Shown piece by piece: positions 60,200-63,460 of a stretch of DNA of 64,000 nucleotides. The stretch comes from Winogradskyella vidalii (GTDB lineage: Bacteria > Bacteroidota > Bacteroidia > Flavobacteriales > Flavobacteriaceae): positions 558,001 to 622,000 of the forward strand of contig NZ_JABFDG010000001.1 in NCBI RefSeq assembly GCF_013403955.1, in the 5' to 3' direction. A program made the position numbers and the translations under genes. The notes under the pieces are model-generated. The model did not search any database. It was not told the origin of the DNA and saw nothing but the letters and a program-made list of their open reading frames with translations. Positions within the stretch are counted from its first letter, which is position 1. Each line of letters begins with the position of its first letter.

Positions 60200-60438
60200 A
60201 AAAATTTTTGGCAAATATACTAAAGAAGTTATTAAGTACTTGAAGTTATACCTATTTAAAGTTACGGATATTTGAAGTTCTAAGTATTCAAAGTTGTAAG
60301 TTCTAAAAGTGAATTGTACAAATAAGTATAAGTCAATAAAGACAATATTCAATAAGTGAAAACCTAAAGAAATAGAGGAAGTCATGCGTATTCTAACCGT
60401 AAAAAAATATAAAATAGCTAATAAACCGCAACTTTTAG
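60200..60438. other. Divergent intergenic region between ubiE and trkA, left part
   Basis: AT-rich. The ubiE -7 box TATATTTG (minus strand 60219-60212) is the only signal seen in this part; the right part contains the trkA promoter and leader. Confidence 0.5.
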
Positions 60439-60466
60439 TTGTAATTAGAAGTTCTTAGTATATTTG
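60439..60466 (+). promoter_or_regulatory. Promoter of trkA-trkH
   Basis: TTG at 60439-60441, a 17-nt spacer, and TATATTTG at 60459-60466. The transcript should begin near 60472, exactly where the nested leader hairpin starts. Confidence 0.65.
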
Positions 60467-60471
60467 TTTGT

Positions 60472-60587
60472 CTATTTCAGAGAAACATGATGAAGCGTAC
60501 CTGTTCAAAATTTTATCAGTCAAATAACTGATAAATTTCGAACAGCTTGCTATATTAAGTAAAGTCATCATAAGACTTTTGAAATAG
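60472..60587 (+). promoter_or_regulatory. Nested structured 5' leader of trkA-trkH
   Basis: Four nested inverted repeats share one axis. CTATTTCA (60472-60479) pairs with TGAAATAG (60580-60587). ATGATGA (60487-60493) pairs with TCATCAT (60565-60571). CTGTTC (60501-60506) pairs with GAACAG (60540-60545). TTATCAGT (60513-60520) pairs with ACTGATAA (60527-60534) across a CAAATA loop. The AAATT/AATTT bases between the inner two also pair. The structure ends 15 nt before the trkA ATG. Role inferred: cis-acting leader RNA, class unknown. Confidence 0.6.
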
Positions 60588-60602
60588 CATAAATGAAAAT
60601 AC

Positions 60603-61952
60603 ATGAAAATAATAATTGCTGGTGCAGGTGAAGTAGGGTTTCATTTAGCAAAACTGTTATCTTACGAATCGCAAGAGATTACTTTAATAGATACAAAGAA
60701 AGATAGTTTAGCGTATGCCGGTGAACACTTAGATATTAGGACGATACGAGGTGACGCCACTTCTATAGCAATTTTAAAAGATGCTCGTATAGATACTGCG
60801 GCACTATTTATCGCCGTAACGTCATCAGAAACGACTAATATTACGGCTTGTGTTTTAGCAAAACAACTCGGTGCCAAACGAACCATTGCACGTATTTCTA
60901 ACACTGAATTTATTGAGCACAAAGAAACTGTAGGATTCTCGCAATTTGGGATTGATGAGTTAATTTCACCAGAATCACTAGCGGCTTCTGAAATAGAATT
61001 GCTTTTAAATCAGTACGGATTTAATGATACTTATGAGTTTGAAGGTGGTGAGTTAACGATGTTGGGTTTACGCTTATCTAGGACGGCTACCTTTGTTGAT
61101 AAATCGGTTAAGGAAGCAGCGGCCATTTATCCAGAATTAAATTTTATTCCTATTGCAATTCAGCGTTTAGGAACACAATATACTATAATTCCACGCGGTG
61201 ATACCATTTTTAAGGAGGGTGATAAAGTGGTGTTTATGACCTCTAAAGGTGGTGATGATGAGTTGTTTAAACTATCAGGGAAAGTAAAGGTTTTTATTAA
61301 GAATGTGATGGTGCTTGGTGGCAGTCAAATTGGTTATAAGACGGCTAAGGATTTGTGTTCTAGTAAATTTAATGTAAAATTGGTAGAGAGTAAAAGAGGG
61401 AAGGCAGAAGAATTAGCAGAAGATATTCCTAATGCTTTGGTTATTTGTGGTGATGGTAGAAACGTAGATATATTAGATGAAGAGAATATCTCTGATATGG
61501 ATGCTTTTATTGCTGTCACAGGTAATTCTGAAACTAATATTATGTCCTGTCTTTTAGCGAAATCTAAAGGAGTGAAAAAAACCATTGCGTTAGTTGAAAA
61601 TATGGATTATTACCAATTATCACAATCTATTGGGATCGATACTCTAATTAATAAAAAACTATTAGCTGCCAATAATATCTTTAGGTATATTAGGAAAGGC
61701 GAAGTCGTGGCCATGACGAAGTTAACGAATATGAATGCTGAACTTTTGGAGTTTGTGGTTAAGCCAAAAACCAAAATAACAAACAAGCTCATTAAAGATA
61801 TCAAATTTCCAAAATCAGCTATTATAGGGGGTGTCATTAGAGACGGAAAGGGATCTATTCCACTAGGTAGTTTTAATATTGAAGCAGGAGATCGCGTTGT
61901 GGTTTGTTGTTTACCACGTTCTATATCTGAAGTAGAACGGTTTTTCTCATAA
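60603..61952 (+). CDS. trkA: Trk potassium uptake regulatory subunit TrkA
   Basis: 449 residues: two RCK halves. The N-half has IIAGAGEVGFHLAKLL (1-17) and the second half VLGGSQIGYKTAKDL near 240, each a Rossmann NAD(H)/ATP-binding unit, each followed by a TrkA_C regulatory domain. It is a cytoplasmic gate for the TrkH channel. trkH follows after 5 bp, so the two are cotranscribed. The leader upstream is strongly structured. Confidence 0.96.
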   Translation: MKIIIAGAGEVGFHLAKLLSYESQEITLIDTKKDSLAYAGEHLDIRTIRGDATSIAILKDARIDTAALFIAVTSSETTNITACVLAKQLGAKRTIARISNTEFIEHKETVGFSQFGIDELISPESLAASEIELLLNQYGFNDTYEFEGGELTMLGLRLSRTATFVDKSVKEAAAIYPELNFIPIAIQRLGTQYTIIPRGDTIFKEGDKVVFMTSKGGDDELFKLSGKVKVFIKNVMVLGGSQIGYKTAKDLCSSKFNVKLVESKRGKAEELAEDIPNALVICGDGRNVDILDEENISDMDAFIAVTGNSETNIMSCLLAKSKGVKKTIALVENMDYYQLSQSIGIDTLINKKLLAANNIFRYIRKGEVVAMTKLTNMNAELLEFVVKPKTKITNKLIKDIKFPKSAIIGGVIRDGKGSIPLGSFNIEAGDRVVVCCLPRSISEVERFFS

Positions 61953-61957
61953 TAATT

Positions 61958-63460
61958 ATGTCGCGTATAAAACTCAATTATAAAATAATCTTTCATTTTT
62001 TGGGCTTGCTGCTATTGTTTAATGGTGGCTTTATGCTTACAGCAACTTTAATTAGTTTAATCTATAAAGATGGTGTTACCTTAAGATTGTTTTTAGCTGG
62101 TGTTGTAACCCTTTTAATAGGGGTTATGGTGATGTATAGAACAAAAGACCATCGCAAGGAAATGAACAAGCGCGAAGGGTATATAGTGGTTGCTTTTGGT
62201 TGGATAGTGATGTCGCTCTCCGGAGCACTACCTTATGTAGCAACAGAAGCTATTCCTTCTTTCACCGATGCGTTTTTTGAAACCATGTCTGGTTATACGA
62301 CTACAGGGGCGAGTATTTTAAATGATATCGAGGTGATTCCTGAAGGGGTTTTGTTCTGGCGAAGTATGACGCATTGGATAGGTGGGATGGGAATTATTGT
62401 TCTAGCTATTGCTATATTGCCTTTACTTGGAGTAGGAGGTATGCAGTTATTTGCAGCTGAAGCTCCTGGCCCAAGTGGCGATAAATTACACCCTAGAATT
62501 ACTGATACCGCTAAACGCTTGTGGTTAATTTATGTCGGTTATACAGCTGCAGAAACGATACTTTTACAAGTTGCGGGCATGTCTTTTTTCGACGCCATAA
62601 ACCATGCATTAAGCACTTTATCAACAGGAGGATTCTCTACCAAAAACGCGAGTGTAGCGTATTGGAATGATAATCCAGCGATACAATACATTATTATATT
62701 CTTTATGTTTTTAGCAGGGACTAACTTTGTCTTAAGTTACTACCTCTTTAAAGGTAAGGTTTCAAAGATTCTGCATGACGAAGAGTTTAGACTCTACTTT
62801 AAATTTATAGTTGGCTTTACACTTGTTGCAGCACTTTTAATCTACTTTAAAGCTGATATGTCGCTTTCCTCTATAGATCACCCAATGGTGTTAGGTAAAG
62901 CAGAAAGTGCGCTAAGACATAGTTTGTTTCAGGTGTTAACTGTGGTTACAACAACAGGTTTTGTTTCTGCAGATTATACGATGTGGACCCCTTTTTTAAC
63001 TGTTTTCTTTTTTGGAATGATGTTTCTGGGCGGTTCAGCTGGGAGTACTTCTGGAGGTGTAAAGGTAATACGTCAATTGATTTTAGTTAAGAATAGCTTT
63101 TTAGAATTTAAGCGCGCCTTACATCCTAATGCTATTATTCCTGTGCGTTACAATGGAAAATCGGTATCTAAAGATATTGTGTTTAATGTGTTAGGGTTCT
63201 TTATCCTTTACATGTTATCGTTTATTGTTGGTGCTCTAGTGTTCTCTATGTTTAATATGGATTTTGCTTCTGCTATTGGATTATCGGCATCGAGCCTAGG
63301 TAATGTGGGGCCTGCTTTAGGAGATTTTGGTCCTGTAAATAATTATGCTGCCTTACCAGCTTTAGGAAAGTGGTGGGCCTCTTTTTTAATGCTTATTGGT
63401 CGATTAGAATTGTTTACCGTTCTGATTTTATTAACCCCTTTCTTTTGGAGAAATCGTTAA
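61958..63460 (+). CDS. trkH: Trk potassium channel subunit TrkH
   Basis: 500 residues, about 10-12 membrane segments in four pore-loop repeats. Selectivity-filter segments are visible: SGYTTTGASIL, STLSTGGFST, VVTTTGFVSAD and ASSLGNVGPALG. It carries K+ inward, gated by TrkA. After the stop, CAGTACT (63478-63484) and AGTACTG (63503-63509) with an intervening T8 run might form a weak terminator. Confidence 0.96.
   Translation: MSRIKLNYKIIFHFLGLLLLFNGGFMLTATLISLIYKDGVTLRLFLAGVVTLLIGVMVMYRTKDHRKEMNKREGYIVVAFGWIVMSLSGALPYVATEAIPSFTDAFFETMSGYTTTGASILNDIEVIPEGVLFWRSMTHWIGGMGIIVLAIAILPLLGVGGMQLFAAEAPGPSGDKLHPRITDTAKRLWLIYVGYTAAETILLQVAGMSFFDAINHALSTLSTGGFSTKNASVAYWNDNPAIQYIIIFFMFLAGTNFVLSYYLFKGKVSKILHDEEFRLYFKFIVGFTLVAALLIYFKADMSLSSIDHPMVLGKAESALRHSLFQVLTVVTTTGFVSADYTMWTPFLTVFFFGMMFLGGSAGSTSGGVKVIRQLILVKNSFLEFKRALHPNAIIPVRYNGKSVSKDIVFNVLGFFILYMLSFIVGALVFSMFNMDFASAIGLSASSLGNVGPALGDFGPVNNYAALPALGKWWASFLMLIGRLELFTVLILLTPFFWRNR

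Follow-up and report, generated by a model that had tools for sequence, protein, structure and literature searches.

The nested hairpin ahead of trkA in Winogradskyella vidalii is probably a decayed copy of a small mobile element that inserts at start codons

The trkA leader and its nested stems

The window analysed here is a 64,000-nt stretch of the Winogradskyella vidalii contig NZ_JABFDG010000001.1 (positions 558,001 to 622,000), near the end of which the potassium uptake genes trkA and trkH follow a leader rich in inverted repeats. The features of this locus, in window coordinates, are as follows.

60439..60466, + strand: trkA promoter, TTG (60439-60441) and TATATTTG (60459-60466), from the sequence and from a TAnnTTTG box present ahead of trkA in all 65 genomes examined
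60467..60489, + strand: original short host leader of trkA, matching the 22-26 nt box-to-ATG spacing of 56 genomes without an insert
60472..60587, + strand: outer stem, host leader 60472-60479 with element 60580-60587 (arm check, folding)
60490..60602, + strand: putative diverged copy of a start-codon element, type II stem, abutting the trkA ATG (covariance model R1; alignment with eight other trkA inserts)
60501..60545, + strand: element stem-loop CTGTTC...GAACAG with inner TTATCAG/CTGATAA (arm check, folding, trkA-insert alignment)
60547..60572, + strand, ends approximate: REP-like insert, decayed, of the CTGAGCnAAGTCGAAG type, inside the CATGTGACC motif (better kept at the same place in genomes G016 and G028)
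60603..61952, + strand: trkA (NCBIfam TrkA equivalog NF007038, E 3e-195, above cut-off)
61958..63460, + strand: trkH (NCBIfam TrkH models, best E 7e-117, below curated cut-offs)

The initial annotation had reported four nested inverted repeats behind a promoter, and a check of arm positions in the sequence located all four at 60439-60603 as claimed. The outer arms CTATTTCA/TGAAATAG pair 60472-60479 with 60580-60587 (8 bp), joining the old host leader to inserted sequence; the second arms (ATGATGA/TCATCAT) pair 60487-60493 with 60565-60571, the third (CTGTTC.../...GAACAG) 60501-60513 with 60533-60545, and the innermost AATTTTATCAGT/ACTGATAAATTT, lying within the CTGTTC/GAACAG stem, 60509-60520 with 60527-60538. 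Folded as RNA, positions 60474-60602 reach -30.0 kcal/mol against -16.0 +/- 2.95 for shuffled sequences (z -4.74), a value equalled by none of 200 shuffles. TTG and TATATTTG, separated by 17 nt, fit the consensus of a Bacteroidetes-type promoter, from which the transcript would start at the first base of the stems.

Upstream regions of trkA could be oriented in 65 of the 68 genomes of the genus (G045, G048 and G051 had no usable full trkA). In 56 of these, 22-26 nt separate the end of the TAnnTTTG box from the trkA ATG, leaving a leader of about 20 nt; in the other nine, the window genome included, this distance is 111-138 nt, the leader being followed by a unit of about 90-115 nt that parts it from the start codon. 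Close relatives differ in this, with the unit present in some species and missing from others. A clean insertion is seen in G035, which reads ...AAGACATAG^ATGAAACC...AAACAC^ATGAAAATAATT (carets mark junctions), where its relative G023 reads ...AAAACTTTAG^ATGAAAATAATT. Seven Fitch gain or loss changes are required to place the nine carriers on a maximum-likelihood trkA tree, a number inside the range of 5-9 (mean 8.6) obtained with shuffled carrier labels, so that carriers cluster little; the single carriers G049, G035 and G066 lie far apart on this tree.

These observations bear on the function first proposed for the structure, a new potassium-responsive leader RNA specific to trkA-trkH. The strong fold and the conserved promoter would suit such an RNA, but the insert is absent from the 56 short trkA leaders of the genus and its relatives precede unrelated genes. 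The strong fold is not common to the other trkA inserts either: the seven of eight that were folded gave z values from +0.84 to -2.51, so that the very strong nesting is peculiar to the window copy among those folded. Classes of riboswitch such as ydaO/yuaA, which senses c-di-AMP, can precede potassium transport genes. The initial annotation had judged the leader unlike that class, rightly as it appears, for the region 60200-60800 has no match to any Rfam family up to E 5, and, unlike ydaO/yuaA, the insert is facultative and stands ahead of many unrelated genes. An Rfam search of 20 related loci returned as its sole match a miRNA model at 25 bits (cut-off 95), outside the inserted unit. We therefore rejected a trkA riboswitch, and consider a potassium-dedicated leader RNA highly improbable.

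A dispersed family of elements in the Bacteroidia

When one trkA insert was used as a blastn query, it matched the 3' part of many sequences lying ahead of other genes. Their consensus, about 90 nt long, reads ATGAAAC, a stem with variable loop, (C)CATGTGACC, an A-rich stretch and AACAC, followed in most copies by a second ATGAAA, so that the gene behind keeps its ATG in the right place. By eye, the stems sort into three types: I (AACATCC/GGATGTT), II (GCATGTTC/GAACAGC and similar, to which the window copy belongs) and III (AACC/GGTT, with a longer loop). A covariance model, R1, was built from 21 copies, excluding the window copy, with the structure supplied by hand, and the alignment A4 was fitted to it.

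Searched with R1, the window gave a single significant match, 60488-60605 (36.9 bits, E 8.9e-5; next best E 0.89). Matches occur in 59 of the 68 genus genomes, with up to 50 copies each (E <= 1e-3), in 146 of 397 Flavobacteriaceae genomes from 105 of 237 genera (E <= 1e-4), and in 51 of 395 genomes sampled over the Bacteroidia; in the latter two surveys no more than 10 copies per genome were counted. Forty-four of these 51 genomes lie outside the order. We read five loci beyond the family, and all five have the same ends, then ATGAAA and an ORF, with pheT behind L309 and rpmJ behind L312; many of the other matches outside the order have weak E-values near 1e-5. The element occurs in many families of the class, where it lengthens the leaders of core genes. 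Neither plasmids and phages, searched by blastn with one 98-nt query, nor IMG/VR, searched with one exact pattern, gave a match. Locus L130 (NVVN01000001.1), from a MAG labelled Sulfurovum, and L138 (NVVE01000020.1), from a Lutibacter MAG of the same survey, have very similar genes behind their copies, and the L130 contig is for this reason probably misbinned Flavobacteriaceae DNA.

The second choice of the initial annotation, a MITE-like insertion, comes much closer to this picture than its first, in that a small, dispersed and apparently mobile unit is what we find. Like MITEs, the elements are small, non-autonomous and present in many copies, but their ends (ATGAAAC... and ...AAACAC), read in the sequences, are not inverted copies of each other. 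The copy search it had recommended returned no second copy of the window sequence in its own genome by DNA similarity, and R1 finds seven matches there (E <= 1e-3), which may or may not include the window copy. The window sequence has diverged, and the family comes to light only with the help of related copies and the covariance model. The window copy is best read as a decayed member of this dispersed family, judging by its match to R1: it lacks the CATGTG:CACATG pairing described below, and about 26 nt of it (60547-60572) correspond to a REP-like insert, CTGAGCnAAGTCGAAG, that is better preserved in G016 and G028. A REP-like insert similar to that of the window splits the CATG^TG motif of a copy in G073 (G073:C23:189593-189712); REP-like CTGAGCnnAGTCGAAG sequences thus lie inside this motif at at least two sites, trkA and the one in G073.

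Start codons as target and conserved pairing over them

To describe the insertion sites, we compiled 103 of them from 108 matches, setting aside L080, L076 and L093 as duplicates of other loci and the incomplete L075 and L094. Because the model ends with ATG, this triplet is built into the sites; R1 contains both ATGs, and the AAA on the 3' side and the ORF behind lie outside it. ATGAAA stands on the 3' side of 96 of the 103 sites, the exceptions being ATGAAT and ATGAAC (two each) and ATGACT, ATGTAT and AGGAAA (one each), and the 5' side reads ATGAAA in 95. As background, 12 of 43 window genes start with ATGAAA (p 2e-15 against the 96 of 103). The sites are not independent, since they are top-scoring matches and include orthologous insertions in several species, for example before a gene that by eye is FixH-like.

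For the count of ORF starts we used 96 of these 103 sites, excluding seven tandem units, and 28 of a further 31 matches (L252 repeats L160; two units of L297 were excluded), and five of 154 sites were dropped for flanks that were too short. The remaining 149 comprise 125 at ORF starts (ORF of at least 50 aa), one inside an ORF and 23 elsewhere, one of the latter being rpmJ, too short for the 50-aa cut. In this count start codons took priority for element sites and coding interiors for the window background, so that only a test within G073 compares like with like: there, an ORF starts at 21 of the best 30 of 38 element sites, but at only 14 of the 146 other ATGAAA words in the same loci (p 2e-11). 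With coding interiors removed the ratios are 21:8 and 14:24 (p 0.006). From these counts the element appears to target a word that is common at starts, with hardly any insertions inside genes and with a residual preference, or selection, for starts; the excess of start codons even over non-coding ATGAAA leaves room for selection for a function. Genes verified behind copies are pyrH, serC, argG, hisB, tgt, xth, pheT and rpmJ, and an aldehyde dehydrogenase lies behind L196.

The terminal words may be a target duplication or the element's own end, as the element itself begins with ATGAAA. Sites with ATGAAT, ATGAAC or ATGTAT as 3' flank keep ATGAAA on the 5' side. At L088 (G027:C32:6271-6367), the sole copy with an ATGACA left end also has an ATGACT right flank, a hint that ATGA(A/C) may be duplicated.

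Two pairings within the element show compensatory changes. In the type I helix, 83 alignment cells are changed on both sides, against 28 +/- 6 in shuffles and with none of 500 as high (103 distinct copies), and the covariation score is 0.177 against 0.080, slid versions of the helix scoring lower (nearest 0.118). Counted as pairs with changes on both sides, the signal does not exceed shuffles (5 against 4.1; 182 of 500 as high), and in a smaller copy set 26 of 500 shuffles were as high. Most double changes in the 5' stem are C-G against G-C at one pair between types I and II, and up to 46 of 103 rows fail some pairs of this stem because type II copies pair differently. Unconstrained RNAalifold recovered the 3' hairpin and not the 5' stem. 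The second pairing, CATGTG:CACATG, is exact in 107 of 141 distinct copies, the partner being taken as the best 6-mer within a 26-nt stretch, and CACATG contains the start codon. Five copies carry compensatory versions (CATCTG/CAGATG in three, CATGTA/TACATG and CATATG/CATATG in one each), and the pairing is imperfect in 29, the window copy included. Taken together, the compensatory changes speak for both helices, that of the 5' stem as well as the one that covers the start codon. The element is also a warning that covarying hairpins ahead of genes need not be riboswitches.

As CAUGUG would pair with CACAUG in the RNA and so cover the start codon, a translational effect of the element is plausible, if predicted, and the element might be kept as a mobile translational switch whose RNA controls initiation. 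Besides the exact and compensated pairings, two observations speak for such a switch: the CATG of type II and III copies could alternatively pair with the 5' arm (GCAUG, ACAUGG), as folding predicts for type II, and copies stand at core-gene start codons in several families of the class. Yet exact pairing is missing from the 29 imperfect copies, no evident regulon emerges from the genes behind the copies, and the same pairings could serve DNA transposition. Nor is a switch forced in type I, where only CAT can pair with the left ATG and the 5' stem and start hairpin coexist in the predicted folds. We regard retention for control of initiation as unlikely, and give similarly low credence to its wider form, in which a selfish element landing on start codons would bring a new start region and, by way of the CAUGUG:CACAUG pairing, would have put host genes, essential ones included, under common initiation control across the class. 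What the element supplies to a host gene is an A-rich leader and an intact ATG, with C at position -3 in the consensus. For Flavobacterium johnsoniae an A at -3 is reported to favour initiation, and additional AUGs close to start codons are reported to be under-represented in the phylum (PMC6847099), so the element is not simply an optimal start.

Mobility and candidate mobilisers

Recent copies were found in two of five genomes compared. G073 has 38 matches, among them nine identical ones of 98 nt and 23 with an identity of 97% or more; mean pairwise identity is 0.97 over 22 chosen of 38 full-length copies in G073 and 0.95 over 17 chosen of 50 copies in G041. Such near-identical sequences at different sites point to recent multiplication in these two genomes. 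In G031, G027 and G062, for which 8, 8 and 7 of 30-34 copies were compared, mean identity is 0.71-0.74 and no pair reaches 0.95; these copies are, by their divergence, old, which counts against the mobile reading. Tandem copies share the ATGAAAC junction, and some insertions are inherited, as before xth, where flank and element are common to G024, G027 and G062 (xth verified for the G062 copy). Longer, autonomous copies were sought in G073 and rejected: its partial matches are either remnants of decayed 3' ends, copies altered by insertion or deletion, or possible chance hits.

We conclude, with a probability of roughly 80%, that the window hairpin is a copy of a family of non-autonomous mobile elements of about 90 nt that insert in sense orientation at ATGAAA, mostly at start codons. 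The unit would move as a folded single strand or small circle, mobilised in trans by an enzyme encoded outside it. Pairing of the internal (GTTC)CATGTG with the CACATG on the right and, in type I copies, with the ATG on the left as well may choose cutting and target sites, much as the guide sequences of IS200/IS605 elements do. Since the unit leaves behind an ATG and a ready leader, insertions at start codons would survive selection and those inside genes would be lost. The window copy would then have decayed, taken up a REP-like insert and come to pair with the host leader, by chance or by selection. Most mobile elements harm the genes they hit, whereas this one leaves the gene readable, and landing on start codons would be a way to insert beside essential genes without obvious penalty.

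Among the element's closest parallels are non-autonomous IS200/IS605 derivatives, with which it shares predicted single-strand hairpins, a short fixed target word at both ends and a pairing internal segment. In IS608 the guide lies in the element's own DNA. Recognition of the IS608 target tetranucleotide is described as operating by base pairing and as re-programmable (PMC5934647). A fixed target of 4-5 nt, as in IS200/IS605 elements, is found here too, ATGAA standing 3' of 100 of the 103 sites (ATG being part of the search model and AA not), but the guide-like pairings are mostly constant, which counts against guide-paired mobility, and no IS encoding TnpA with the element's ends was found, either in an end-to-end comparison with one IS type or in an R1 search of 54 Y1 loci. 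REP sequences moved by TnpA_REP (RAYT) are likewise short, hairpin-forming, dispersed, mostly non-coding and without a gene of their own. Their defining feature is a palindrome of 20-40 nt with a GT[AG]G foot (PMC6006769, PMC3733652); the element consensus lacks this foot, and the element differs further in its length of about 90 nt, in its ATGAAA target at start codons and in having no RAYT beside the copies examined. As a small non-autonomous repeat it is of a known kind, and its start-codon target and anatomy are new to us; we found no description of the family in the open-licence PMC literature, a weak negative.

The six-base target word raises a testable question about the mobilising enzyme, none having been found among the Y1 transposases and the one IS110 examined. 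A Y1 (IS200/RAYT-type) transposase acting in trans is a tentative candidate, and on balance a doubtful one. Both genomes with recent copies are rich in matches to PF01797, searched in 18 chosen and the 68 genus genomes (14 in G073 and 7 in G041, fragments included; set against element copy number by eye from two tables), and hairpin anatomy with a fixed short target fits single-strand transposition. However, only two of 54 Y1 loci have a significant R1 match in the fetched flanks of up to 1.5 kb, so copies do not flank a RAYT gene there, and the ends of one common IS200 type are unlike those of the element. With its 30 copies, G031 lacks any Y1 match at E <= 1e-3, though RAYT-type domains score near this limit, and in G061 three Y1 matches stand against none to the element. 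As a carrier of the element, Y1/IS200 was rejected, no shared ends being seen when Y1 ORFs, flanks and ends were read and the 54 loci scanned with R1.

A recombinase of the IS110 family, of which the small unit would be a derivative using the same ATGAAA core, is improbable. The left end of one IS110 was found at seven places in G041 (L255-L261), each time directly behind a small element, the right junction appears as CAC^ATGAAAC as well in the single complete copy (most others run into contig ends), and the protein has the Pfam domains DEDD_Tnp_IS110 and Transposase_20. Yet within the genus this protein occurs in one of 68 genomes (E <= 1e-20), against 59 of 68 for the element, and it was rejected as carrier on that count. 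The association is better explained by a use of REP-type repeats as targets: IS621, an IS110 element that the G041 one resembles, is described as inserting into REP elements (PMC11208160), and the G041 IS110 is accordingly best read as a parasite of repeats.

A further objection to Y1 in trans comes from RAYT-hemF loci, which carry a different repeat. In 20 genomes, including that of the window (L225, G000:C44:322985-323323, ORF of 509 aa), PF01797 matches lie in ORFs of about 490-530 aa. At the 15 loci that were inspected, an in-frame fusion joins a RAYT-type Y1 domain to coproporphyrinogen III oxidase (HemF), with Pfam support for L225 and with the fusion point apparently at hemF's own start, and a CCTGCAAGGTTT...AAACCTTG(T/C)AGG-like palindrome lies just upstream of many of these ORFs.
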